Source: a virus
IMG/VR virus record: IMGVR_UViG_3300022698_000087
Coordinates: 1-63,855 of that record
Length of the DNA stretch: 63,855 nt
Strand: one strand, 5' to 3'
In this document: one piece after another, positions 3,033 to 58,864 of the stretch
How the letters are laid out: each line of letters starts with the position of its first letter
How positions within the stretch are numbered: position 1 is the first letter of the stretch
Position numbers and translations under genes: made by a program
The notes under the pieces: model-generated
What the model was told of the DNA's origin: nothing
The model's database searches: none
Seen by the model: the letters and a program-made list of their open reading frames with translations, nothing else

Positions 3033-3254
3033 TTATCGGACGCATGGTCTACTTGCCTCCATTAGCTTGATGGTCACAACTTTGTGTTCTCGAAAGTCTG
3101 TCCCCACAAGCCCGGCCTGCTGCATGGCGTCCCAGCTCTTTCTGAGACTATCGACCGAAGGCCACAGCCACCTGCCGCCCTCGTTCTGGACCCAGATTTT
3201 GCCGGAGACGCCATGTCTCAAGGCATACATAACAGATTGCGGGAGTTTGTTCAT
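3033..3254 (-). CDS. Hypothetical protein, 73 aa
   Basis: The ATG overlaps the rtcB stop (ATGA), so translation is coupled to rtcB. The protein has a W-rich middle (GGRWLWP) and the pattern SLRKSWDAMQQAG, typical of a small helical protein. The GTCCGATAA motif that recurs across this genome forms its last three codons including the stop. No family is recognised. Confidence 0.7.
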   Translation of the reverse strand: MNKLPQSVMYALRHGVSGKIWVQNEGGRWLWPSVDSLRKSWDAMQQAGLVGTDFREHKVVTIKLMEASRPCVR

Positions 3255-6979: not shown

Positions 6980-7216
6980 TCAGTTATCGGACTGAAGATC
7001 CTGAAGCTCCTCGGTTGTTTTTGCTCCAGGCTCATATACGAATAGGTATTGCTTCAGGTGGTCAAGATCTCGATAGGTATGGGTCACTTCATTGTGTCCC
7101 ACATGATCGTTCGTGATCCGAAGTTGATTGGTCCCCGCTACTTCGTAGATGATGTATCCCCACTGGCCCACCATCCATCGAACCTCATGTAGTGCCATGG
7201 CCTGTACGTTTCTCAT
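6980..7216 (-). CDS. Hypothetical protein, 78 aa
   Basis: The ATG at 7216 overlaps the stop of the metallohydrolase gene (ATGA). A second ATG six codons in is possible. The product is mixed and Tyr/His rich with no Cys cluster or membrane segment. The recurring GTCCGATAA motif forms part of its last codons. No family is recognised. Confidence 0.65.
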   Translation of the reverse strand: MRNVQAMALHEVRWMVGQWGYIIYEVAGTNQLRITNDHVGHNEVTHTYRDLDHLKQYLFVYEPGAKTTEELQDLQSDN

Positions 7217-8250: not shown

Positions 8251-9066
8251 TTAAAGAATGTCCAGAATCTCCTGGTCGAGATCCAGAACAGATTCGGCAT
8301 ATCCTATAACAGCACAATCAACAAGCCATTCTACATTGATGCCGACAAGTTTTCCATCTAGAAACATCGGGCCCCCACTGCATCCTGGAAAGGATAGCCC
8401 CTGATACAGAATGTAATTCTGGTTGTTTGTGTCTTTTTCATTTGACACCCGGCCCCACGTCATGATAAAATGCTGCTTCCACAAGTGCCCAGGAGGACAT
8501 CCAAAACAAATGATCTTTTCCCCAAGGTCCGGCCGTTTCATCGTCAGGTCCGCCCACACATCGCTAGAGCCGTCTATAATGACGGCCGCTAGATCATTGT
8601 CCGTGTCAAGCACGACTCGGACAATGTTCCACGTCTGGCCAGTGTATGCCGTCACAGCTCCAATTCCCCCGATGGTGAATAGCTTGGCCACATGTCTTGC
8701 CGTCAGCACAACATTATCGGACACAAATACTCCTGAGCCCATACCACCACCAAAGGCAGTCTCTATTCTAATAGAGACACACGGCCCTCGCAGCTGCTCG
8801 TATGTCAACCCGCCGTATCCATCGTCCGATAAAGAGTCCAACCCACCCTTTAGAGAGTCCAACCCACCCTTTAGAGAGTCCAACCCACCCTCTATGTCCT
8901 TCAAAGCGTGAAAGCTGGATAGGGCCCACTGGCGAGCGTTGTGGGATCGAAACTCGTTCTGGCTAGTTCTGATCTTCAGTTCCTTGACGTCTGCCTCCTG
9001 CCACGATGCCATCACCACCAGCAATCCCAGTACCAGTGTAATCAGAATGTTTGTTGCGGTCCTCAT
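8251..9066 (-). CDS. Membrane-anchored or exported trypsin-like serine protease, 271 aa
   Basis: The ATG at 9066 follows AGGAGAATTATTG. Residues 1-21 form a signal anchor (ILITLVLGLLVVMA), so the enzyme should work in the periplasm or at the cell surface. The catalytic triad is visible: His125 in TARHVA, Asp158 in DNDLAAV, Ser230 in PGCSGGP. Residues 59-79 are three tandem GGLDSLK repeats encoded by a 21-bp G-rich DNA repeat. A trypsin-fold protease that is not part of the head-maturation set is unusual in a phage; defence, lysis or superinfection roles are possible. Confidence 0.85.
   Translation of the reverse strand: MRTATNILITLVLGLLVVMASWQEADVKELKIRTSQNEFRSHNARQWALSSFHALKDIEGGLDSLKGGLDSLKGGLDSLSDDGYGGLTYEQLRGPCVSIRIETAFGGGMGSGVFVSDNVVLTARHVAKLFTIGGIGAVTAYTGQTWNIVRVVLDTDNDLAAVIIDGSSDVWADLTMKRPDLGEKIICFGCPPGHLWKQHFIMTWGRVSNEKDTNNQNYILYQGLSFPGCSGGPMFLDGKLVGINVEWLVDCAVIGYAESVLDLDQEILDIL
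8833..8893 (-). repeat. Tandem G-rich 21-bp repeat inside the protease gene
   Basis: Three 21-bp units carry AGGGTGGGTTGG on the coding strand and encode GGLDSLK repeats. The same GGGTGGGTTGG core occurs about nine times in non-coding DNA at 57689-57850, so the sequence appears to be maintained as DNA rather than only as protein. Confidence 0.8.
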
Positions 9067-9167
9067 CAATAATTCTCCTCATGTCTTCTGATATAGCTTT
9101 CCTTGTTGACTGCCGCAGCCGTCGCCAATTCATCCACAGAAAGACGACGGCCCTCAGTGACGCCCAC
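9066..9167 (-). CDS. Very small hypothetical protein, 33 aa, GTG start
   Basis: A GTG at 9167 opens 33 codons ending in a TGATG overlap with the protease ATG. The peptide (start GVTEGRRLSVDELATAAAVN) has a normal protein-like composition, unlike the overlapping longer frame. It fills the otherwise unexplained 100-bp gap after 9169-9522. The ribosome site is weak. Confidence 0.4.
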   Translation of the reverse strand: MGVTEGRRLSVDELATAAAVNKESYIRRHEENY

Positions 9168-9609: not shown

Positions 9610-10314
9610 TTAGAGGGTTGCCTGTGCTTCCTTGACGGCCTTTCTCGTTTCCGGCAGCTGTCCGTCCTTCAGCTGTTTGATGAGCTGCTTCGCCGCGTCT
9701 TCGCTCGGTTGGGTGTCGATGATCGTCTGGATGTTTCCGACGAGCTGTGTCACCGCCGTGGTCTTGATCTTCAACTGATTACTCAGAGCGGAAATGGTTT
9801 CCTGCAGGGCAGCTTCAGCTTCCTTTACCGCAGTGCTGACGGCGTCGGCCTTCTCAGCTTCCGCGTCTTCCTGGGTAATGTCGCCGGATCGCTTACGAGT
9901 CAAGCCCAAATAGCCAGCACCAAACGTGCCAAGGCCTAATATGCCCAGAGAGACGAGGCCGGTCTTTGCATTGAAGAGAAAGTCATGATTTGCTGTGGCC
10001 AGTTCCAGATCGGTTGTTACGGTGTTTGTAAGGATCTGGTCTTTCAGGTGTTTTGTCTCGGCCAGTTGTTTTAGTTCTTGGTCTGTAAGGGCGATAGCAG
10101 CTTTGAGATCGATTTCGAGCCGCTTAACATCGGCCAAGCTCGAATAGCCAAGGGGATTCTTGTAGTTTTCGCCGTCACCTAGACCGGCATCCTTCACATA
10201 GTTGATTGCGTCTTGGTCAGTCCGGCCCGGTGCCATCATCTCTGACAGTGTGCCGATGCATCCCGCCGAAATCATGGCGATAACCAATGCGGCAATTGCT
10301 AGTACTTTCTTCAT
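9610..10314 (-). CDS. Putative lipoprotein with internal membrane segment and coiled coil, 234 aa
   Basis: The ATG at 10314 follows GGAGACCTGAGTG; a GTG one codon earlier is an alternative. Residues 1-18 are a basic and hydrophobic signal ending in a lipobox-like MISAGC with Cys19. A second hydrophobic segment lies near residues 117-138 (VSLGILGLGTFGAGYLGL), and the flanking regions are long charged helices. A lipoprotein signal with a second membrane segment recalls unimolecular spanins, but there the membrane segment is C-terminal, so the fit is incomplete. Confidence 0.7.
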   Translation of the reverse strand: MKKVLAIAALVIAMISAGCIGTLSEMMAPGRTDQDAINYVKDAGLGDGENYKNPLGYSSLADVKRLEIDLKAAIALTDQELKQLAETKHLKDQILTNTVTTDLELATANHDFLFNAKTGLVSLGILGLGTFGAGYLGLTRKRSGDITQEDAEAEKADAVSTAVKEAEAALQETISALSNQLKIKTTAVTQLVGNIQTIIDTQPSEDAAKQLIKQLKDGQLPETRKAVKEAQATL

Positions 10315-11260: not shown

Positions 11261-13624
11261 CTAAAATGGTGGCTCGTTAATTGACTCCGGGACATCCTGC
11301 CATACTGTCTTGAATCCGCTCACATGGTCCCAGGACTTTCGGCATTCACACAGGCTAGGTATTACAAAGCATCTGGGCTTTGTGCAGAAGTTAAGCCCGG
11401 TCTGTCCGCCCTTCCCCGGCATTGGGCTTTGACCTATGGTTTTGATCTCGGGGTAGCCCGCAGGGAGAACTCTCTTCATGAAGCGAGTTAGTCTGTTCAT
11501 CGAACATCGGTTCATGTAGTTCCCTGCGAACGTTTTGACAAAGTCGATGAGGTCCGCAAGTAGTTCGGTCTTAGCAATGATTAACTCCCACTCCTCGTGA
11601 CGGTTCAACACTTTACCTTCGTGAAGCTTGTCGTACCACCACGCCTCTTCTGGCGATAGATTCAACTGCTTCTGCTCCTGCAAGGCCTCGGTGTTTGGAG
11701 GCTCGCGGAGATCTACCTGCGTGACATCGTAGTTCATCAGGTAGTGAAGTAGGGCCTCATATCCGCCGTTGTTGAGCTGCTCATCGATAGCCTTGAAGTA
11801 CTTGGCATCTTTGCGGTGCTCTTCACTAACATCCAACATGCAGAAGCGTCGGTCATCCATCGCCACCGGAACAACCCACTCATTGTTGGACGCCATAATG
11901 AGATGAATATAGTTGGGAGATGCTTCTGCGTCGATACCCTTCTTTTCTACAATGATGTGCTCTTCTGTGATTATGGCTTTCAGAATACCTTCACTCTTCT
12001 TATCGCCCGCGAAGAACGCCTCATCGGCGAACAACACAACACAGTCACGCAGGTGGGCGTTGAATGATCCAACCAAGTGCTTGGAATTACTGATTGGAAC
12101 AAAGTGCTGGCCGAATAGATGTCCTACTTTCTTAGCGAAGAAGCTCTTACCAGTTCCCTGCTTTCCTCGAAGAACGATAGCAGTTCCGGCCGGTCGATCT
12201 GGATGCTGCACTGCGTCCGCAAGCCAAGCCATGACATATTTGAAGTAGCCCTCATCCTTTCCGCAAATATTGTCTCGAATGTGGTCCAGGAATAGCCCAC
12301 AATCTCCTGGTCTTGCTTCACAAGTGAACCCACGCCACAGGTTGAATGTCCCTGGGATTTCACGGCCTGGGACGAATACTATCTGGTCAAACTGTCTGCG
12401 GTGCTTGTGGAGCAACCACCACTTTCCCTTCGGCATAAACGTATCTTTACCGTCCTTGTCGGTTCCCACCTTGACATGTTGGTTCATGTATCTATTCTGG
12501 AAGTCGGCGAAGGTTTGTGTCTCTAGCTTTGGCCGTCCGAATGCGTGGTCGAACTCTTCGGAGATAACTCTGCACTTGCCACCCATCGATGAAATGACCG
12601 CGTGACGCTCATTAAGCTCCATCAATGATTTATCAACTGCACATTCCTTGGCCCGTTGGATCTGGCGAAGGGCGTAGGTCTCAGCACGTCCCTTGCACTG
12701 AAGCACTGACTCAGAGATTCCAAAGTCTTTATCTGTGATGATGGAGTAGATAACTTCATCGGATATCTGAGCACGTACCAGCTCGCACACTACGCAGAAT
12801 AGGGTTTCACTTCGTGACGTGAACCGTGTAGGATTATCTGGATCATGTCCCTGGGCAATGAGCACCTTAACCCACGGCTTTACTTCATCACCCAATTCGT
12901 CGAGGTCTTCAATTCGACGTATGTTTCCGGTGTCCACTTGCGGGGCCAGCTCTGACGTACCTCCAGAAAACCCAGAGGAGGCGGACATCTGCACATCCTG
13001 GGCTTTGGTGAAGTCTTCCAGAGGATAGGAAATGCTTTCATCAAAATGAACCAGTGCTGCCATGACTTCTGTTCGGCCCTTCTTACGCTTCTTTGCGTTT
13101 GGCCGATTCATTGTTCCAGGCAGTCGCATGATTCTGTCGATGTTGTGACAGCTGTCCCCTCCCAGGAGGATCTCCAGCTGCATATTGTATCTCTTGGCGT
13201 CCTCAGCCCTTTCAAGATTGCCATCGATAATGATGGGCTCCTCTAGCCTCCAGAACGCCTGATAGCCTCCACCGGAGAATATGACACAGGTGGGGACGGG
13301 CTTGAATTTCCTGATGCTTTCAAGGATTCGCTCTTGCTCAGCTTTGATGTCTTCACCGGCCCGAGGATCTACATCGACATGCAGGTACTCTACTGATTGG
13401 ATATTCTCTCGTGATGACTTCTTGTTCATGACCCCTATTGTGGGGTTTACTGAGAAGTAGATATTATGGGCTTGTCCCTGTGCGGTTAACCAGTCTTCTA
13501 ACTTCTGTGAGTCTTCTGCATTGAATGTGACTGTGTTGAGACGACCACCATCTACTGGTATGGCTGTAATTGTCCATGGACCATTAGGACGAAATTTCTG
13601 TAGGAACTCAAGAGCCTGTGACAT
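11261..13624 (-). CDS. PrimPol-helicase (archaeo-eukaryotic primase plus superfamily 3-type helicase)
   Basis: This 787-residue protein joins an N-terminal AEP-type primase domain, with the catalytic HVDVDPR motif and SGGGYQAFW plus RIMRLPGTMN, to a C-terminal AAA+ helicase with Walker A GKQGTGKS, acidic VLFADEAFFAG, sensor ASNNEW and arginine motif DDRRF. This architecture matches phage NrS-1-like PrimPol proteins (helicase part DUF5906). It should prime and unwind DNA at the phage fork. The start is set at 13624 after AAGGATATCGTTGACT; an ATG eight codons upstream is possible. It overlaps the nuclease gene. Confidence 0.93.
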   Translation of the reverse strand: MSQALEFLQKFRPNGPWTITAIPVDGGRLNTVTFNAEDSQKLEDWLTAQGQAHNIYFSVNPTIGVMNKKSSRENIQSVEYLHVDVDPRAGEDIKAEQERILESIRKFKPVPTCVIFSGGGYQAFWRLEEPIIIDGNLERAEDAKRYNMQLEILLGGDSCHNIDRIMRLPGTMNRPNAKKRKKGRTEVMAALVHFDESISYPLEDFTKAQDVQMSASSGFSGGTSELAPQVDTGNIRRIEDLDELGDEVKPWVKVLIAQGHDPDNPTRFTSRSETLFCVVCELVRAQISDEVIYSIITDKDFGISESVLQCKGRAETYALRQIQRAKECAVDKSLMELNERHAVISSMGGKCRVISEEFDHAFGRPKLETQTFADFQNRYMNQHVKVGTDKDGKDTFMPKGKWWLLHKHRRQFDQIVFVPGREIPGTFNLWRGFTCEARPGDCGLFLDHIRDNICGKDEGYFKYVMAWLADAVQHPDRPAGTAIVLRGKQGTGKSFFAKKVGHLFGQHFVPISNSKHLVGSFNAHLRDCVVLFADEAFFAGDKKSEGILKAIITEEHIIVEKKGIDAEASPNYIHLIMASNNEWVVPVAMDDRRFCMLDVSEEHRKDAKYFKAIDEQLNNGGYEALLHYLMNYDVTQVDLREPPNTEALQEQKQLNLSPEEAWWYDKLHEGKVLNRHEEWELIIAKTELLADLIDFVKTFAGNYMNRCSMNRLTRFMKRVLPAGYPEIKTIGQSPMPGKGGQTGLNFCTKPRCFVIPSLCECRKSWDHVSGFKTVWQDVPESINEPPF

Positions 13625-14036
13625 AGTCAACGATATCCTTAACGTCATTCGTCACGAGCACAGCCAATTGTCTATGAACCTCTTGGTTCTTTCCAGGCTT
13701 CGCGACGTAGTTGCACGCAGTATCAGCGTCGAATAGTAACCATTCCCGCGTCTTCGCAACATATAGAACAAGCCAAGCCCGTCCATCACTTATGCCTAGC
13801 TTGTCCAGGGCGTAGGCCCTACGCCTAAGCCACACTCTTTGTTGCGGGGAGAAGTGGGGGATGCGAATCGTTGTTGCTTCTTTGACCGGCCAATCCTCTA
13901 GGTATTTACATTCAATCCAACCACCGATGTACTGAATGTCAGGAGTGCCGGGATATGCAGGATTCTCAACGCTTGTAGCGTCTCGACCTGCCACATTCAG
14001 TGCTTTTACGAGAAGTTGTCTTTGTTGTTGTTCCAT
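13608..14036 (-). CDS. VRR-NUC-like PD-(D/E)xK nuclease, 142 aa
   Basis: The core reads PGTPDI (residues 29-34), GGWIECKY (39-46) and QRVWLRR, the D...ExK plus Q/R arrangement of small VRR-NUC or resolvase-like nucleases. Its place between DNA polymerase and PrimPol genes suggests a recombination or fork-processing role, perhaps branched-DNA cleavage. The ribosome site is weak; the next gene starts within its end. Confidence 0.85.
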   Translation of the reverse strand: MEQQQRQLLVKALNVAGRDATSVENPAYPGTPDIQYIGGWIECKYLEDWPVKEATTIRIPHFSPQQRVWLRRRAYALDKLGISDGRAWLVLYVAKTREWLLFDADTACNYVAKPGKNQEVHRQLAVLVTNDVKDIVDYVTGS

Positions 14037-22577: not shown

Positions 22578-22692
22578 ATTCCTCTCTAGTAATTACTCCA
22601 GACAGCAAGTTGTAATTCAAGTCGTACACTTCGTGGGGGACAGACCGTCGTCTCGGCGTGTCCCCCTTGCCACCAGCCCAGGCCCCACTCAT
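22513..22692 (-). CDS. Hypothetical protein, 59 aa
   Basis: The ATG at 22692 overlaps the stop of the A1-like gene (ATGA) and follows GGAAAGTACAGAGC. The product has a Gly-rich N terminus, then YDLNYNLLSGVITREEYD, a helical hairpin pattern, and a basic end. It lies just after the internal promoter 22785-22813. No family is recognised. Confidence 0.65.
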   Translation of the reverse strand: MSGAWAGGKGDTPRRRSVPHEVYDLNYNLLSGVITREEYDVCIDEAWKQAEKRGWKRPI

Positions 22693-24296
22693 GCTCTGTA
22701 CTTTCCTTTCCAAACAGTGATAATGGTACGCTTACCGTTCGGGTACGTCACTATGTGCGAGTGAGACCAGCTTGACGGACCCCTATTGTACCACACATCA
22801 GACTTGATGTCAAACGATACTCCTGCAACGTATAGCCCATCATGGATTCCTGCCTTATGCAGATGACCTACGTTGGCCTTGCGTCCCATTCTACTCAGGT
22901 TCGACGGATTCCCTCGGGCTCCATCGGGGCCAAGATGTCCATGCATTCCGCACTCAATATTCGCTTCTGTGATTAGCAGGCTTTGGTCTTCCCTCAAGAA
23001 CGTTGCGATACTCTCTTCCAGCCCTAACATTCTGCAAGCGTGCTCTAGGACATGGAACTCTCTGCCGTAGGGATCGGCCTCCATGGCCTCATATACAGCG
23101 GCGTTGAGCTTCAACCACATTACTGCATTTTTTGGATCGTCTAGGCCGTCTCTACTGTCCAACCAACGCTCAATCCAGGGTCGGTCATGGTTGGCGTCTA
23201 CAACATAGGTGTGGCAAAAGTCTCGATATAGGCCGCGAAGGTGGTCATTGCATAACTGGAACTCTTTCTTAATGTCACTCCATCCACCAGATCGGATGAA
23301 GTTGCGAAACCGCGTATGAAGTGACTTACGTGACCAGTGGTTTGTCACTGAGCCTGCCATGATATCATGAACAAACTGAAACTTAGGGCGAAGCTCATCC
23401 AGCATTTTCTGAGAACACTTGTTGACACTCTCGTCTAGAAGCATTAGAGCGTGAGAATCTCCCCACGTGATGGCCTCAATTCGATCATTCTCATATACTA
23501 CGCCGCTCTCAACTACAACGTCAAGGTCGTATATTGTGCCATCATCTGTAGCGTTCAATTGACGCAGCCACCAATTTCCTTCACTATCTACCTCAACAAT
23601 CACAGCACCATAGCAGTGATGGAACTCCGCCTTCAGTCCTTCTCGCTTCTGAATGTAGTTACGCTGAGTGACGGTCCCTGTTGTGTAGTTGAATTTGGTG
23701 TTCTCTTTCCGTCCTGTAGCTATGGACTCCATAGCAAACTTCACTTGTGGAAAGATGGCTGAGGATCGGCCAGTATAAGACTCGAAGCCTGTTAGCGGTC
23801 GAACCGCCGTAGGGAGAATGTTCATTTCTCCACACCAGTATAGGTCGTTGGCAATGAGATAGCGTTCGTCCACAATGTATGGAACGATATTCTGGTCGTA
23901 CCAGAGTGATTCCTTATCCTTGGACTTGCCTCGCTTCACCGACTTCTTGCCGAAGGCGTTCTGGTTATAGCTAAATGTCCCCACCATCAACCGGGCATCG
24001 TAGTGTTCTGCAAGGGCCAACAAGTTTTTCCACACAGGAATATGCACGTGCGTATTGTTCTGAGCACTTGTTAGGATGTAACGCTTGATTCTACCTGCTC
24101 TAGGAAAGCGACACTTTACAGCTTCGACTCCGTGGACACTTCCGTCAACGAGTTTCTTGGTCCGATCTATTCCCGCTTTCTTTAGGTGGTGGTAGATGGA
24201 GGCTCTACCTATACCTAAGTCCTTAGCAGTGGCCTGAATGTTGCCTCCATGCTTCTGATACGAATTAACCACCTGTTCCATTGTCACCCTTGACAT
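22689..24296 (-). CDS. T5 A1-like metallophosphoesterase nuclease with N-terminal HTH, 535 aa
   Basis: The ATG at 24296 follows AAAGGATCGGC. Residues 5-40 form a Fis-like helix-turn-helix (GNIQATAKDLGIGRASIYHH). The rest carries calcineurin-type phosphoesterase motifs: GDSH (279-282), ANHD (369-372), a GMHGH (450-454) and GHLH (477-480), and ends with GPSSW...SH...YPNGKR, as in phage T5 pre-early protein A1 and relatives. A1 is tied to host DNA degradation in T5. The gene overlaps the HAD deoxynucleotidase gene, consistent with a DNA-breakdown unit. The enzymatic role here is inferred. Confidence 0.82.
   Translation of the reverse strand: MSRVTMEQVVNSYQKHGGNIQATAKDLGIGRASIYHHLKKAGIDRTKKLVDGSVHGVEAVKCRFPRAGRIKRYILTSAQNNTHVHIPVWKNLLALAEHYDARLMVGTFSYNQNAFGKKSVKRGKSKDKESLWYDQNIVPYIVDERYLIANDLYWCGEMNILPTAVRPLTGFESYTGRSSAIFPQVKFAMESIATGRKENTKFNYTTGTVTQRNYIQKREGLKAEFHHCYGAVIVEVDSEGNWWLRQLNATDDGTIYDLDVVVESGVVYENDRIEAITWGDSHALMLLDESVNKCSQKMLDELRPKFQFVHDIMAGSVTNHWSRKSLHTRFRNFIRSGGWSDIKKEFQLCNDHLRGLYRDFCHTYVVDANHDRPWIERWLDSRDGLDDPKNAVMWLKLNAAVYEAMEADPYGREFHVLEHACRMLGLEESIATFLREDQSLLITEANIECGMHGHLGPDGARGNPSNLSRMGRKANVGHLHKAGIHDGLYVAGVSFDIKSDVWYNRGPSSWSHSHIVTYPNGKRTIITVWKGKYRA
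22785..22813 (-). promoter_or_regulatory. Consensus-like promoter TTGACA-17-TACAAT
   Basis: -35 TTGACA (22808-22813) and -10 TACAAT (22785-22790) on the minus strand are 17 bp apart, inside the end of the A1-like gene. It would drive 22513-22692 and the SNF2-helicase operon. Confidence 0.8.
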
Positions 24297-24895
24297 GCCG
24301 ATCCTTTCATATTCAATGCGGGATAATCTACAATTCCAATCCACTTATCTAGTGCTGATGCGATCCAATTAACAGCACCACCCTCGAAGAATACATAGTC
24401 GAGGTGATTCCAAGGACGTGGCACCAATATGGCCGCTCCTCCAGCCTTTGACCAACGATAAACATTATCACTATTATCATCAATCAAAAGATCGTGGAAG
24501 CCGTGGGCAAACTCTTCCTTCGGAATGTGAGTGGGCACTATTCGGTGACGCAGCTCAGGGACATTGTCCGTCACCCACTTGGCTTTTCCGGTGTACGACC
24601 CGTCATTGTCCATAGGCTTTGTGAGAAGCCGCACATCTTCGGGCCTGAATCGATCCCACATCACCTGTAGGATCTCTTTCCCATCCACCATCCAAGGCAG
24701 GTTTGCCCAGAAGGCTGCGTCGCAATGCTCGCTTGCTTCTTTGTAGCTGGTGTTCGCTAGTGGAAAGAAGTCAAAACAACGTCCCCATGGCCACTGCTTG
24801 AGACCGCCATATGGGATGTCCATGGCTTTACATATTCCAGTGACGAAGTCTGCAAGGACTCCATCACAGTCGAGATTGATTCCGAAGTCTTGCAT
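24284..24895 (-). CDS. HAD-family 5'(3')-deoxyribonucleotidase-like protein, 203 aa
   Basis: The N terminus INLDCDGVLADF has the HAD nucleophile pair Asp9 and Asp11, LLTKP supplies motif II, KAKWV the Lys, and LLIDDNSDN motif III. This is the pattern of NT5C-type nucleotidases that remove phosphate from (deoxy)nucleoside monophosphates. It overlaps the DUF5664 gene (TAATG) and the A1-like nuclease gene, so it probably acts on nucleotides released from host DNA. The substrate is inferred. Confidence 0.88.
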   Translation of the reverse strand: MQDFGINLDCDGVLADFVTGICKAMDIPYGGLKQWPWGRCFDFFPLANTSYKEASEHCDAAFWANLPWMVDGKEILQVMWDRFRPEDVRLLTKPMDNDGSYTGKAKWVTDNVPELRHRIVPTHIPKEEFAHGFHDLLIDDNSDNVYRWSKAGGAAILVPRPWNHLDYVFFEGGAVNWIASALDKWIGIVDYPALNMKGSACQG

Positions 24896-30445: not shown

Positions 30446-31239
30446 TATAGTCCCTCGAAAGGATTCCCAGCCAAGTATGGACATCCGTCAAAGTTATCTG
30501 TATTAGAGAACTTTGATAAGCATGTCTCAATTGTCCTATCACATCCAGCAAAGACATCCACAGACTCAGCCAATACCGTAGAATAGAATGGAAGGGACAA
30601 AGTCAGGACATCTCCTGTTTGATCGATAATTAACCTATGATCCTCAACGCCCAAAGCGACGTATCCTCCTGTAGCCCATCCTGTGCCTTTCGATGCAGAA
30701 AGCCCAGGGACGGTGATGGTACGTCCAGACACAGCCGACACGTTGCCTGTGAATTTATAGGACGACTTCAGGATCGTGCAGCCGGTGCTGAATAATACAT
30801 GGTTGCAGGTGTTCTGAAAAGTCCTATCGGTGATTGACTTACTGTAGGCACTTGCTGATGGGATGACCATCAGGTCAGCACTTGACATGTCATTCGTAAA
30901 CATCACATTCCTGATCTCTCCAGTGAAGACCATCTGAACGTCACTCGGGAGAGATCTGTGATATGCATGAATTGCCAAGTAGCATAGGCTACTTGGGCTC
31001 ATGTTCAAAAACATCACAGGAAAGTCATGATCGGACGGAAGTGTTACCCTAACTTCCTCTGAAGCTTTGGATGTGATCGATCCTCGCTTGATCTCAAGAG
31101 GCTCATAATCATATCCGCCATATGAGATCGCTGCCTCGACAGAGTTATGGACGAAGAACGCCTCGCTACCCACCGTGAGGGTATAAAGCTCTACCTTACT
31201 TCCACCAGCTGCCGAAGCCTCTATGTCCGAAAAGGCCAT
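30445..31239 (-). CDS. BR0599/DUF2163-like tail protein, 264 aa
   Basis: The C-terminal pattern C(8)...CLSKFSNTDNFDGCPYLAGN is the signature of the BR0599 family found between distal tail and tip proteins in siphophages and gene transfer agents. The N-terminal half is beta-rich with GGSKVELYTLTVG. Start and stop overlap both neighbours (TAATG), showing a tightly coupled tail cluster. Probable tail tip component. Confidence 0.87.
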   Translation of the reverse strand: MAFSDIEASAAGGSKVELYTLTVGSEAFFVHNSVEAAISYGGYDYEPLEIKRGSITSKASEEVRVTLPSDHDFPVMFLNMSPSSLCYLAIHAYHRSLPSDVQMVFTGEIRNVMFTNDMSSADLMVIPSASAYSKSITDRTFQNTCNHVLFSTGCTILKSSYKFTGNVSAVSGRTITVPGLSASKGTGWATGGYVALGVEDHRLIIDQTGDVLTLSLPFYSTVLAESVDVFAGCDRTIETCLSKFSNTDNFDGCPYLAGNPFEGL

Positions 31240-39763: not shown

Positions 39764-39792
39764 ATTATATCACATATTATAGGACTTTACAA
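39764..39792 (-). promoter_or_regulatory. Late promoter TTGTAA-17-TATAAT with embedded GTCCTATAA
   Basis: On the minus strand -35 TTGTAA (39787-39792), 17 bp, -10 TATAAT (39764-39769); CACACC then the ATG of the neck gene. The spacer contains GTCCTATAA (39777-39785), the recurring 9-mer. Confidence 0.75.
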
Positions 39793-46884: not shown

Positions 46885-46914
46885 ATTATAACATTTATCG
46901 GACCTGGAAGTCAA
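46885..46914 (-). promoter_or_regulatory. Late promoter TTGACT-18-TATAAT with embedded GTCCGATAA
   Basis: -35 TTGACT (46909-46914) and -10 TATAAT (46885-46890) on the minus strand are 18 bp apart, with GTCCGATAA (46895-46903) in the spacer. It drives the major capsid gene. It overlaps an inverted repeat (46897-46940). Confidence 0.82.
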
Positions 46915-46940
46915 GAAAAAATCTTACTTCCAGGTCCGAT
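46897..46940 (+). terminator. Inverted repeat / possible plus-strand terminator overlapping a late promoter
   Basis: A perfect 15-bp inverted repeat (46897-46911 with 46926-46940) is followed on the plus strand by TTTTCTTTTA. On the minus strand the same DNA holds the -35 and two copies of the GTCCGAT half-motif in opposite orientation, so it may also act as an operator. Confidence 0.55.
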
Positions 46941-51494: not shown

Positions 51495-51523
51495 ATTATA
51501 GGACATATCGACGCAGAAGTCAA
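51495..51523 (-). promoter_or_regulatory. Late promoter TTGACT-17-TATAAT with embedded GTCCTATAA
   Basis: -35 TTGACT (51518-51523), 17 bp, -10 TATAAT (51495-51500); GTCCTATAA (51496-51504) overlaps the -10 itself. It opens the packaging/head operon with transcription start about 3 nt before the TerS ATG. Confidence 0.88.
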
Positions 51524-54240: not shown

Positions 54241-54552
54241 TTACGCTCCTTTACCTGTTCCGCTGCATCTGGTGCAGGTTGTTTGACCGACGGTTTTTCT
54301 ACCACCACACACCGGACATACGCCCGGCACCAGGACTCGCTTGCTGTCGATGGTCTGACCATCGTTATCCATGAAGAAGACTCGATCCCCGTGGTACAGC
54401 CTGACCTGAATGCCGTGGAACTCATCATCCAGTAGCGGATAGCATTGGAGAACAACGAAATCGTCTCCGGCCTCGTGGTTCTTCCAGACCGCTCTCTCCA
54501 GCTCCATAATCTGCTTGTCATTCCGGTGGTCGTCTTGAATCTTCACAAACAT
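54241..54552 (-). CDS. DnaJ-type zinc finger protein, 103 aa
   Basis: The ATG at 54552 has CAGGAGAATGCAG; a GTG further upstream is less likely. The C terminus has CPVCGGRKTVG...CTRCSGTGKG, matching the DnaJ-type CxxCxGxG zinc finger. The N-terminal part is beta-rich with VRLYHGDRVFFMDNDG. First gene after the promoter 54624-54652. Confidence 0.75.
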   Translation of the reverse strand: MFVKIQDDHRNDKQIMELERAVWKNHEAGDDFVVLQCYPLLDDEFHGIQVRLYHGDRVFFMDNDGQTIDSKRVLVPGVCPVCGGRKTVGQTTCTRCSGTGKGA

Positions 54553-54623: not shown

Positions 54624-54652
54624 ATTCTACCACATTCATGTTCGAGGGTCAA
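54624..54652 (-). promoter_or_regulatory. Promoter TTGACC-17-TAGAAT
   Basis: -35 TTGACC (54647-54652), 17 bp, -10 TAGAAT (54624-54629), minus strand. It lies next to AT-rich DNA and the motif array at 54692-55064 and drives the operon ending at 51531. Confidence 0.8.
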
Positions 54653-54691
54653 TGGCTATTTTATAAAATAATTGTGGATAGAGAATATCCA

Positions 54692-55064
54692 TTATAGGAC
54701 TTTTGGGGTTGGTTGATTTTTTTGAAATTTTGAAACTCAAAACCTCACGCAGTGGTGACGGGTGCCAGGAAGGGGCGTCCGATAATTCATGGGGGGAAAG
54801 GCCCCTATACCCGTTATTATCGGACCATAAATCCTCGATCTAATGCAATGAGCGATGATATTATCGGACCACAATGAGTGGCCTCGGTCGATGGTTATAG
54901 GACGTTCGATATTATAGGACGTGTGTTATGGGACGTCGATATTATCGGACGTGGTAGGTCCGATAACAAGGGCACAACATAACCTGTCTTATCGGACGTT
55001 GGTTATAGGACGTGCCAGCTGGCTGGTCCGATAATAAATCACGCACCACCTGGACGTCCGATAA
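54692..55064. repeat. Array of 13 GTCC(G/T/C)ATAA motifs in non-coding DNA
   Basis: Thirteen copies of TTAT(C/A/G)GGAC or its complement occur in 373 bp: nine as TTATxGGAC (54692, 54817, 54861, 54895, 54912, 54926, 54942, 54989, 55003) and four as GTCCGATAA (54777, 54958, 55026, 55056). No convincing ORF. Flanked by an AT-rich stretch (54652-54725), a TGTGGATAG DnaA-box-like 9-mer (54673-54681) and a promoter. Candidate origin, operator array or both. Confidence 0.85.
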
Positions 55065-55151: not shown

Positions 55152-55700
55152 TTAGGCTGGCGGATTTGCTTCTTTCACGTGGTTGAATTGATCTTGTTCG
55201 ATGTCAACAGGCTTATCATGAATGTATAGGTGGCCTTGTCCATCTACTTGCACGCTTGCGGATATCAGGCTTTCGACATCGACGAAATCTTCTGGCGTGT
55301 CGCCGTATTCGCTACACGTTAGAGCGTGATCGTGTCCGATCTGGTCTGGATGTTGGCGGTATTTGGGCCATTCACATATACAACCACTGTAGAGATAGTC
55401 GGGCCCATTCGCTCCGGCCGGAGTCTGTTTGTAGTCAAGCCAAACGCAATGGACGCCAAGCACTTCCCGTAAACGTTCCCAAATCACAAGCACCACTTTC
55501 GGGTCTACGTCCGATAAGATGTCAATTCGACATCCTGGCTCTACTCTGTTCATGTTTCCGCGTTTCACGTGAACGCTTGACCACATCGGGGTTACATTCG
55601 TGACAAGCCGATAGCTTGACAGAATAACGGCCGAACGTCTGGCGATTTCCATTGGCAATGTGTTCATTGTCGGAACACTGAGAAATAGTCTACTCTTCAT
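55152..55700 (-). CDS. Hypothetical protein, 182 aa
   Basis: The ATG at 55700 has AAAGGGCAACCC. A possible zinc site is C..C near residues 112-122 with CICEWPKYRQHPDQIGHDH; the C-terminal half is beta-like. It is the last gene of the operon from 57.4 kb. No family is recognised. Confidence 0.7.
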   Translation of the reverse strand: MKSRLFLSVPTMNTLPMEIARRSAVILSSYRLVTNVTPMWSSVHVKRGNMNRVEPGCRIDILSDVDPKVVLVIWERLREVLGVHCVWLDYKQTPAGANGPDYLYSGCICEWPKYRQHPDQIGHDHALTCSEYGDTPEDFVDVESLISASVQVDGQGHLYIHDKPVDIEQDQFNHVKEANPPA

Positions 55701-56124: not shown

Positions 56125-56152
56125 AGTATAATGCACACTTGGAAAGATGCAA
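56125..56152 (-). promoter_or_regulatory. Promoter TTGCAT-16-TATACT
   Basis: -35 TTGCAT (56147-56152) and -10 TATACT (56125-56130), spacing 16, minus strand; TTTGCA with 17 bp is the alternative register. It drives 55799-56023 and 55152-55700. It belongs to the TTGCAT-type set. Confidence 0.7.
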
Positions 56153-56160
56153 ACGGAAAA

Positions 56161-56403
56161 TCAGATTTTTCCAGACATTACGGCTGCATATTCAATGAAA
56201 TTACGTTTGTGATAGTGTAGGGCAAGCCGATACATGGCTTTACGTGCAAGCCTTGTGTAGCTATGTGGTTTCATCCTATCAAAGAACATTCGGCACACTT
56301 GACGATTTGACGTCCCAACGTGAACACGTCCCATAAACCATTCAACCATCGGAGCATTCGCCTTGACCGTCTCTACTGTTATTATCGGACGTTTGTGTTT
56401 CAT
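56161..56403 (-). CDS. Small basic protein, 80 aa
   Basis: The ATG at 56403 has GGAGAGACTGAGCC. Basic and His-rich helical protein (SYTRLARKAMYRLALHYHKRN). The recurring motif at 56382-56390 lies in its first codons (RPIIT). No family is recognised. Confidence 0.65.
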   Translation of the reverse strand: MKHKRPIITVETVKANAPMVEWFMGRVHVGTSNRQVCRMFFDRMKPHSYTRLARKAMYRLALHYHKRNFIEYAAVMSGKI

Positions 56404-56406
56404 GGC

Positions 56407-57027
56407 TCAGTCTCTCCATTCTGGGAATACTGGCGTTTCGCATTTGATTTCGCGATAGACTTGCAAGAACGATCTATCACGTAATCCATTTTTCCGTCTA
56501 ATGGCGTACCATATGACGGCTTGATATCCAGCTGGCGTTGCGTTGCATCGTCTGGCGTCTTGGCGAATCTTGCGTTCAAGTCTGGCGTATATGCTTGGCG
56601 TCAAGGCCTTGTGCTTTATGCCGTACGCTCTACAAATCCAAACGTCAATTGTTACAACGTCCAAATTGCCCTTGAGATTTGCAGCAAATCGAGAAACCTT
56701 AGGGCCATGTATCGGCTTGCGTTGAAAAGATCGGAGCACGTTGTCCAAATGTGCTGGCATTAGCGAGCCAAGCACATCGGCCAATTTCTCTGGCTTGGCG
56801 TCACGATTCAAGTAAGCTTGCATAATCTCTACGGACATTCTCCAATTCTTCTTTACCGATATTCTTGGCGAAGTGCTTGCCAGGATATCGACGAACGTTT
56901 CCCAGTATGGGCCCCATAGACTTTGAATAAGTGCTTTGGAGTCTTGATACCACGTTAACGCCGAATAGTCGATTTCGTCAAGCTTGCATCTAAGACGCAA
57001 GCGAATTTTCTGTTTCTTCTTTGCCAT
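56407..57027 (-). CDS. Hypothetical helical protein, 206 aa
   Basis: Starts MAKKKQKIRLRLRCKLDEID with a basic N terminus. The middle (FAANLKGNLDVVTIDVWICR, then AYGIKHKALTP) resembles a phage family with HhH-like helices, also seen in some actinobacterial phages. The last part holds QAVIWYAIRRKNG. Function unknown. Its start is coupled to 57027-57197. Confidence 0.7.
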   Translation of the reverse strand: MAKKKQKIRLRLRCKLDEIDYSALTWYQDSKALIQSLWGPYWETFVDILASTSPRISVKKNWRMSVEIMQAYLNRDAKPEKLADVLGSLMPAHLDNVLRSFQRKPIHGPKVSRFAANLKGNLDVVTIDVWICRAYGIKHKALTPSIYARLERKIRQDARRCNATPAGYQAVIWYAIRRKNGLRDRSFLQVYREIKCETPVFPEWRD

Positions 57028-57507: not shown

Positions 57508-57659
57508 TTATCGGACTATGGAACCAATATGGTCCGATAATGTCTAATGTTATGGGACCACGGAGGTCACTTGTTATCGGACGTTGGCTGCGTGCATGTT
57601 ATCGGACGTGTGACTGCGGGCAGGTTATCGGACGTGTGACTGCGGGCAGGTTATCGGAC
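57508..57659. repeat. Second array of seven GTCC(G/C)ATAA motifs, partly in 26-bp tandem repeats
   Basis: Copies at 57508, 57550, 57574, 57599, 57625 and 57651 in one orientation and 57532 in the other. The last three are spaced by 26 bp in tandem repeats (ttatcggacgtgtgactgcg core). No gene. Together with the array at 54.7-55.1 kb it brackets the 55.1-57.4 kb operon. Confidence 0.88.
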
Positions 57660-57688: not shown

Positions 57689-57850
57689 CCAACCCACCCT
57701 CTGCAGAAGCCAACCCACCCTTTGACAAGGCCAACCCACCCTCAACCCACCCTTCGCAGGTGCCAACCCGCCCTCTAAGGCCGCGTCCAGAAGCCAACCC
57801 ACCCTCTGCAGGCTCCAACCCACCCTCAACCCACCTTCAATCCGCCCTTG
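57689..57850 (-). repeat. G-rich repeat GGGTGGGTTGG, about nine copies
   Basis: Copies of CCAACCCACCCT or variants on the plus strand, at 57689, 57710, 57731, 57742, 57763, 57794, 57815 and two degenerate copies to about 57850. On the minus strand this gives runs of GGG suitable for G-quadruplex formation. A minus-strand frame (57671-57982) crosses it, but its start lies one base from a -10 and there is no ribosome site. Confidence 0.8.
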
Positions 57851-58135
57851 AAGCTCTGAGGCCCAGAGGAGCACGCAGAGCACGTGTCGCCGGGTATTTG
57901 AGCCCAGTCGGTCGCTATCTGCCAGGGGTAGATCAACTTTGTGATCCAAAGCTTTCAAAAGTGGTTCTTGGTTGTACTCCATAAGTATAGTATTTATATA
58001 CTCTTAACAACTTATCAACAAATACAACATTTATTTAGTCAGTAAGAAACTACAGATCCACCAACAACCTCGCGTGTTCCTGGGCCCTGAAAATCCTCCG
58101 AAGTGAAAACAAAGTGGTAAAAGTTGTCTTCTTGT

Positions 58136-58160
58136 TAAGTCCTTCAACCATAAGCACTTA
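58136..58160. repeat. 25-bp direct repeat, copy 1
   Basis: The 25-bp TAAGTCC...GCACTTA unit occurs here and at 58206-58230, exactly 70 bp apart. It is nearly symmetrical at its ends (TAAGT/ACTTA), and copy 1 lies between AAAGTGGT and ACCACTTT, an inverted pair. Confidence 0.85.
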
Positions 58161-58205
58161 GTCGTCATTACTAAGAACCACTTTTTCAAAAAGCTGTCCA
58201 CTACG

Positions 58206-58230
58206 TAAGTCCTTCAACCATAAGCACTTA
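58206..58230. repeat. 25-bp direct repeat, copy 2
   Basis: Exact second copy of 58136-58160. It may be a binding site pair or RNA element. Located just after a run of ACAATCG-type short repeats. Confidence 0.85.
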
Positions 58231-58256: not shown

Positions 58257-58415
58257 AAATACAATCGTCATAATCGTTACAACCATATCTAATCGTCACA
58301 ATCGATACTGAAATAATCACTACAATCGATACAATCGGAAATGCCATAATCCATACAACCGGCACAAATAGAAAAAGACCACCAGTTTGGTAGCCTTTTC
58401 GTAATCGATACAACC
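58257..58415. repeat. Degenerate iterons of about 9-10 bp (ACAATCGAT-like)
   Basis: Units such as atacaatcg, tcataatcg, ttacaacca, tcacaatcg, actacaatcg and atacaatcgg repeat about every 9-10 bp over 150 bp. A small minus-strand frame (58228-58413) with a hydrophobic stretch crosses them but starts with TTG and has no ribosome site. Iteron-like binding sites for a replication or regulatory protein are the better explanation. Confidence 0.6.
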
Positions 58416-58423
58416 GCTACAGA

Positions 58424-58864
58424 TTATATAAACCAGTTCGGAAGCTCCTCCACTTCGCCACTGGCCAGTCCGCGAATGGCCATGAATCCAGATCTAGCAA
58501 CCGTTCGGGGCTTCCGAGACTCCCTGATGGGGGCCTCGGCTTCACATCCCGTCCACGCTCGATCTAGGGCCTGGAGCGTCTTGTACCACACTCTTTTCGT
58601 GTAGCAGTTCATCCAGTACCATCCCTCGCGGTGCCTGAGAGCGTAGCAGCCCTCTGTGACCGGCCACGCGGTCATTTCCGACATCGTATGGCCCCGCTCG
58701 TTGACCAGCTCCAGATCGTCCCACAGGAGGCCCTGCTTGGCCATCATGCCGGAGACCTTCAAGGCCACAATCGCCCGATCTCTGGATTGGTAGCCGAGCA
58801 CGGCTCCTTCCTTCCTCGGACCCGGCGTGAACACGTCGCCACCCTTCATTCTAAGCCACCACAT
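58424..58864 (-). CDS. Hypothetical protein, 146 aa
   Basis: The ATG at 58864 is in a TAATG overlap with the upstream stop; ATG eight codons upstream is inside the neighbour. W-rich N terminus, then VALKVSGMMAKQGLLWDDLE and a helical region. The C terminus is acidic (LASGEVEELPNWFI). Last gene before the repeat region. No family is recognised. Confidence 0.7.
   Translation of the reverse strand: MWWLRMKGGDVFTPGPRKEGAVLGYQSRDRAIVALKVSGMMAKQGLLWDDLELVNERGHTMSEMTAWPVTEGCYALRHREGWYWMNCYTKRVWYKTLQALDRAWTGCEAEAPIRESRKPRTVARSGFMAIRGLASGEVEELPNWFI

Follow-up and report, generated by a model that had tools for sequence, protein, structure and literature searches.

Of the tailed phages seen only in metagenomes, most have unknown replication origins and late-gene switches. 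The locus considered here, a gene-free stretch of a virus record packed with copies of one 9-mer, GTCC(G/T/C)ATAA, raises the question of what such an array is for: the original prediction named three possibilities, namely an origin, a sponge for a regulator and a stoperator-like array. The reading that we lean towards, with somewhat less than even confidence, is that this array and a second one hold the initiator-type boxes of a replication origin, and that single copies of the same box are operators of late promoters.

The window, by which we mean the whole stretch analysed, is a 63,855-base virus record with nearly all genes on the - strand, and its gene set comprises terS, TerL, portal, scaffold, capsid, tail, PolA, helicases and a RepB_primase/DUF5906 primase-helicase. 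Judging from its proteins, it is distantly related to Pseudomonas phage YuA (Mesyanzhinovviridae). Its core proteins share ~45-50% identity with their counterparts in YuA, Sphaerotilus phage SN1 and further Mesyanzhinovviridae (~47% with YuA over seven core proteins), TerL, portal, PolA and primase-helicase are homologous, and gene order is shared; the label Mesyanzhinovviridae-like refers to this homology and gene order and is not a formal family placement. No named phage matches the window at the DNA level, and nearer relatives from IMG/VR have core proteins ~71% identical to its own (two of these records, G064 and G065, are apparently one phage in part). Of the long proteins that were compared, the one with the highest identity to the relative G001, at 83%, is an A1-like DNA transfer protein with an N-terminal HTH (22689-24344, phrog_1745).

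That the 9-mer is denser than chance allows was borne out by the shuffle count proposed with the original prediction. The region 54692-55064 holds 13 exact GTCC(G/T/C)ATAA sites in both orientations (4 +, 9 -), compared with a maximum of 2 per 373 bp in 200 shuffles, and it is indeed gene-free, with no ORF of 60 aa or more between 54594 and 55152. Both strands of the whole window carry 31 exact GTCCNATAA sites, against 1.5 expected from dinucleotide shuffles and a maximum of 5 in all among 200 shuffles of the window; any other gapped 9-mer reaches at most 7 per 373 bp. A second array (7 sites, 57508-57659) and 11 single sites had been overlooked. The two arrays together hold 20 of the 31 sites in mixed orientation, and 23 of the 31 are oriented with transcription. 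The first array and its surroundings comprise the following:

54692-55064, no strand assigned: array 1, 13 GTCCNATAA sites, with an ordered core of 12 sites at 54777-55064
54791-54805, no strand assigned: GGGG..AAAGG-CCCC inverted repeat (GGGGAAAGGCCCC hairpin) between core sites 1 and 2, kept in five phages by alignment
54977-54983, no strand assigned: ACATAAC within array 1, invariant in five phages by alignment
54657-54745, no strand assigned: AT-rich flank of array 1
54624-54652, - strand: sigma70-like promoter TTGACC-N17-TAGAAT adjoining array 1

Both the AT-rich stretch and the promoter-like sequence that had been noticed beside the array are present, and G001 has a strong promoter at the equivalent place (10102-10130). 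The DnaA-box-like 9-mer also exists (TGTGGATAG, 54673-54681) but is not kept in G001; the conserved parts of this region are the boxes, the GGGGAAAGGCCCC hairpin and ACATAAC.

A search of related phages, likewise suggested at the outset, found the order, orientation and near-base spacing of array 1 kept in five phages, with the common pattern >40<44<..<14<16<17>30<14<23>30>. The spacings in the window are 40, 44, 34, 17, 14, 16, 16, 31, 14, 23 and 30, and the first twelve sites of G001 repeat the order and orientation at 41, 44, 24, 28, 14, 16, 17, 30, 14, 23 and 30; G063, L155 and G067 follow the same grammar with few sites gained or lost, and G064 carries a reduced version. Box columns of the five-phage alignment are 86% identical, against 47% for spacer columns. 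Conserved spacing despite this drift in sequence is, we infer, a requirement of an ordered protein-DNA complex, whereas a plain sponge could do without it. In the relatives, array 1 is found on the upstream side of terS, and in the window it is 3.2 kb from that gene.

When DNA stability was ranked per 60-mer by nearest-neighbour energies, weak DNA was found beside both arrays. The 60-mer adjoining array 1, at 54657-54716, is the third least stable of the window, and the least stable belongs to the neighbourhood of array 2:

57508-57659, no strand assigned: array 2, 7 sites, the final four 25-26 bp apart
57689-57836, + strand: AACCCRCC (CCAACCCACCC) repeats downstream of array 2, in one polarity, in the same order in G001, G063 and G064
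57981-58040, no strand assigned: least stable 60-mer of the window and candidate unwinding element, ~320 bp beyond the last array-2 site

The order of boxes, AACCCRCC repeats of one polarity and weakest 60-mer of the record holds in all four distinct phages with array 2 intact (G000, G001, G063, G064), and the weakest 60-mer lies 300-380 bp beyond the last array-2 box in each. Fixed spacing in relatives and adjacent least stable DNA speak for the origin among the functions first proposed; the lack of any switch in GC skew speaks against it, and so does the coincidence of other weak regions of a genome with ordinary promoters. This region has further repeats. On the other strand, 57732-57753 reads AGGGTGGGTTGAGGGTGGGTTG, a possible G-quadruplex with shorter G-runs in G001, and two more repeat families lie to the right of the weakest DNA, at 58119-58230 and 58259-58424: one is a pair of 42 bp with TAAGTCCTTCAACCATAAGCACTTA, and the other resembles ATACAATCG. 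CCAACCCACCC recurs as coding repeats at 8838-8890 in ORF 8251-9069 and at 54319-54434 in the G001 homologue, in both cases close to two GTCCGATAA sites.

The single sites fall partly in promoters and partly in or beside genes:

51495-51523, - strand: terS promoter TTGACT-N17-TATAAT, its -10 box supplied by the site at 51496-51504 (GTCCTATAA)
46885-46914, - strand: capsid promoter TTGACT-N18-TATAAT, with the site 46895-46903 in its spacer
46897-46940, - strand: long inverted repeat, about 12-19 bp, enclosing the capsid promoter, its arms co-varying between phages
39764-39792, - strand: promoter-like TTGTAA-N17-TATAAT, with the site 39777-39785 in its spacer
55509-55517, + strand: single site within ORF 55152-55700
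56328-56336, + strand, and 56382-56390, - strand: two single sites within ORF 56161-56403
8714-8890: two sites (8714 -, 8824 +) and three CCAACCCACCC repeats within ORF 8251-9069
3033-3041, - strand: single site that includes the stop codon of ORF 3033-3254
6984-6992, - strand: single site adjoining the stop codon of ORF 6980-7216
30755-30763, - strand: single site within a tail-region gene, probably a chance occurrence

Sigma70-like promoters hold three of the 11 single sites. The terS promoter is the top-scoring sigma70-like promoter of the window, and the TATAA of its GTCCTATAA site forms the -10 box. In all six records checked that contain the terS and capsid genes (G000, G001, G064, G065, G066, G067), each of these two promoters carries one site, on the -10 box or in the spacer; the single sites of the structural region are non-random. 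The counterpart of 39764-39792 in G001 is a promoter-like sequence with a degenerate site (85516-85544), and the G001 homologue of ORF 8251-9069 likewise has two sites, together with CCAACCCACC repeats. Boxes at the -10 or in the spacer of a promoter normally block RNA polymerase, and the position of the boxes at terS and capsid makes repression likelier than activation there. The capsid-promoter inverted repeat is also found in the same gap of G001, G064, G066 and G067, and its co-varying arms suggest selection for a hairpin, in RNA or in DNA, at which read-through transcripts are perhaps processed. The window has a second family of promoters, TTTGCATC-N-TATACT, seen at 56125-56153 (-) and at many gene starts in G001 and G002, at early-type genes; its layout resembles the CTTTACTTCTTC..CACTATACTT elements of YuA, which are annotated as phage-cofactor dependent.

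The boxes, their conserved order, the weak DNA and the overlap with promoters are observed directly, and the box system could be a docking system that links DNA copying to structural-gene timing. In the mechanism that we propose, GTCCNATAA (on the other strand TTATNGGAC) would be the recognition box of one sequence-specific DNA-binding protein, presumably the same for all copies. Some 12 boxes in array 1 and 7 in array 2, held at fixed distances, would load this protein into an ordered complex, which may help to melt the adjacent weak DNA at 54657-54716 and 57981-58040, and the melted DNA would then be the loading place of the phage primase-helicase. On the terS -10 box and in the capsid spacer, the same protein would hold back the structural genes, and this repression would end once the protein is drawn off, for example by the multiplying copied arrays, which might thereby act as a titration timer. 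One 9-mer shared by an origin-like array and the promoters of terS and capsid offers a testable route for coupling copying to the structural genes.

The motif also extends beyond the window's group. A pattern of three spaced sites matches 105 stretches in viral contigs, and, besides relatives of the window, two unrelated groups are highly motif-rich: a group of larger phages (G025-G032, G036) and a group of small, podovirus-like ones (G038, G040, G058). All three lineages leave base five free, tolerate A to G at base six and keep bases 3 and 8 strict or nearly so; the larger-phage group additionally tolerates other changes, e.g. C to T at base four. The sites of the unrelated lineages are mostly one-way, with some over gene starts. 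The clusters of the larger phages overlie small genes, for the most part in a single orientation and here and there across start codons, and look more like an operator or stoperator field. Since the unrelated lineages generally lack weak DNA next to their clusters, the motif by itself does not necessarily imply an origin, and the same box may serve different ends in different phages. Nor does the motif track kinship within the wider family: G047 has it at 43% identity, and relatives at 45-60% are without it or almost so. A literature search found no phage family described with the motif, which is weak evidence of absence given that subscription papers were largely outside its reach. Matches of the pattern in bacterial genomes were set aside, as they are mostly short-period tandem repeats (9, 12, 21, 22, others). 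Many bacteria (L204-L320, genome_contigs) carry GTCCNATAA tandem minisatellites of period 9, 12, 21 or 22, and some of the 21-bp minisatellites could be coding heptads with Leu-Ser-Asp (TTATCGGAC). One stretch of a Heimdallarchaeota MAG chromosome (L318 4091-5760) contains densely crowded TTATCGGAC copies, much as the larger phages do, and we take it to be a provirus or a mis-binned phage.

Which protein might bind the box? Two products of the window come into consideration by function or position:

11261-13648, - strand: primase-helicase (RepB_primase + DUF5906), candidate replicative helicase
56407-57027, - strand: DUF7178 protein with a DNA-glycosylase-like fold, between arrays 1 and 2

None of the candidate initiators examined explains all motif-bearing phages. 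Profile searches found no protein family common to the three motif-rich groups, and the unrelated motif-rich records tested, some of them fragments, have no DUF5906 primase-helicase. Together these results point to a host protein, which is the simplest binder because no family occurs in all three groups and the motif is independent of kinship; a small, fast-changing phage protein may bind it instead, and the binder is most likely either a host protein or a small unrecognised phage protein. That unrelated phages use one motif, with no common protein family found, suggests a host factor not yet described and may be of help in identifying the host. A bolder form of this idea, which we think unlikely, is that a host-encoded DnaA-like initiator with TTATNGGAC specificity serves three or more unrelated phage lineages in both replication start and late-transcription timing. 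The dnaA neighbourhoods of 11 bacteria carrying pattern matches, with at most one TTATNGGAC, lent no support to a host DnaA with a matching box.

Several specific candidates were rejected. Phage-encoded DnaA domain IV (Bac_DnaA_C) was sought in 47 records and scored over the cut-off in none of the motif-bearers. The DUF7178 protein, whose fold is only weakly glycosylase-like, occurs in the window's group and some unrelated motif-rich phages and is absent from most others. The protein at 13608-14036, in the position of the YuA 'putative repressor' region, is by eye a PD-(D/E)xK nuclease and is kept in motif-free relatives; the HTH match at 22689-24344 is the A1-like DNA transfer protein; and a BCS1-like AAA ATPase, which in G063 and G001 is close to array 1, was not found in the window.

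The main rival to the origin reading is a purely transcriptional system, in which a repressor would occupy arrays and late promoters in the operator/stoperator style of cluster A mycobacteriophages, with no replication role. Sites within the terS and capsid promoters, the orientation of 23 of 31 sites with transcription, the overlap of some with stop codons and the mostly one-way sites of the unrelated lineages, some over gene starts, would all suit it. We nonetheless consider it somewhat doubtful, since two thirds of the sites are gathered in two clusters where orientation is mixed and spacing fixed, these clusters flank the weakest DNA, and no HTH repressor was recognised among the proteins scanned (small ORFs in part), save for the HTH on the A1-like DNA transfer protein. 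Spacing also bears on a decoy that would titrate a host DNA-binding protein, adopted by several unrelated phages of hosts sharing that protein: a sponge depends on the number of sites and would not require the near-base conservation of spacing that is seen, and the boxes in promoters would be left unexplained. Such a decoy seems quite unlikely to us, even though the motif is dense, with similar tolerated changes, in three lineages without a common protein family and is distributed independently of phage kinship. Of the regulator sponge first suggested, the regulator part is supported by the single sites within late promoters, and the plain sponge fits the conserved spacing poorly.

Could the boxes instead be iterons bound by the phage's own primase-helicase, in the style of P4 alpha or SaPI Rep and without a host factor? 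The window enzyme resembles the NrS-1 and SaPI5 primase-helicases in fold, its C-terminal part is winged-helix-like in the structure model, and YuA relatives with this primase-helicase have iterons of their own. The absence of DUF5906 from the unrelated motif-rich records tested (some fragments), and a motif that G047 has at 43% identity but nearer relatives (45-60%) wholly or almost wholly lack, make this very unlikely. A packaging (pac) or partition site is the least credible explanation and highly improbable: array 1 is upstream of terS in relatives, but it is 3.2 kb from terS in the window, array 2 is further still, boxes occur in promoters, and no par genes were recognised in the window.

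The origin reading, with its promoter operators, can be set against known systems. The stoperators of L5-type cluster A mycobacteriophages comprise more than 20 copies of one asymmetric site, some in promoters and biased with transcription (PMC9283540). The window shares all of these traits, including an operator inside a promoter, here late rather than early. The cluster A sites are however 13-mers spread genome-wide with an identified repressor, whereas those of the window are mostly clustered at fixed spacing; with 20 of 31 sites in two mixed arrays, instead of single dispersed sites in short intergenic gaps oriented with transcription, and with no repressor gene found among the proteins scanned, a stoperator-like array in the strict sense is not what we see.

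Iteron origins, where spacing matters for cooperative Rep binding (PMC4980987), are a further comparison. Those of plasmids RK2, R6K and P1 and lambda ori have repeated boxes, set spacing and an adjacent AT-rich unwinding element, and the arrays likewise present multiple copies of one putative binding site in non-coding DNA, constrained spacing and orientation, and adjacent AT-rich DNA, most strongly at array 2. Iterons differ in being mostly 17-22 bp, in two to seven copies, with a known Rep; the window has a 9-mer in ~12 and 7 copies, in mixed orientation and without a recognised binder. SaPI and P4 replicons have iterons beside AT-rich DNA, and their primase-helicases share the fold of the window's enzyme, but the lack of DUF5906 in the unrelated motif-rich records tested (some fragments) and a motif independent of kinship argue against box binding by that enzyme.

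Nearer at hand, the terminase-upstream regions of YuA, SN1 and G010 likewise comprise a gap without genes ahead of terS, in which 9-bp repeats adjoin the weakest DNA of the genome; there the motif is of AAGTTAAGT type, the layout palindromic and the weak DNA made of short simple repeats. In YuA and G010, AAGTTAAGT-type repeats abut the two weakest 60-mers, which precede terS and the helicase operon respectively, and, unlike in the window, one repeat region stands at each operon start. A comparable site with a changed motif thus recurs in the wider family, which counts in favour of the origin reading. These paired palindromic arrays, which adjoin simple repeats of TATC, AAG or TAA where both main operons begin, resemble origins or promoters, and the YuA record marks one active promoter in each of its two gaps. 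The YuA/G010 repeat regions are:

L096 10860-11180
L097 400-850
L062 15750-16110
L064 6870-7210

The DnaA box is TTATNCACA, and bacterial oriC resembles the window in its 9-mer with a free fifth base (TTATNGGAC against TTATNCACA), its several boxes with weak DNA and its single promoter boxes. The last four bases of the DnaA box are unlike those of TTATNGGAC, and the consensus here is TTATNGGAC, not TTATNCACA. Because no initiator was recognised, and the DnaA consensus and domain searches were both negative, we assign the arrays to neither class; by analogy, they may work like an iteron or DnaA-box origin, and the promoter boxes like a phage operator.
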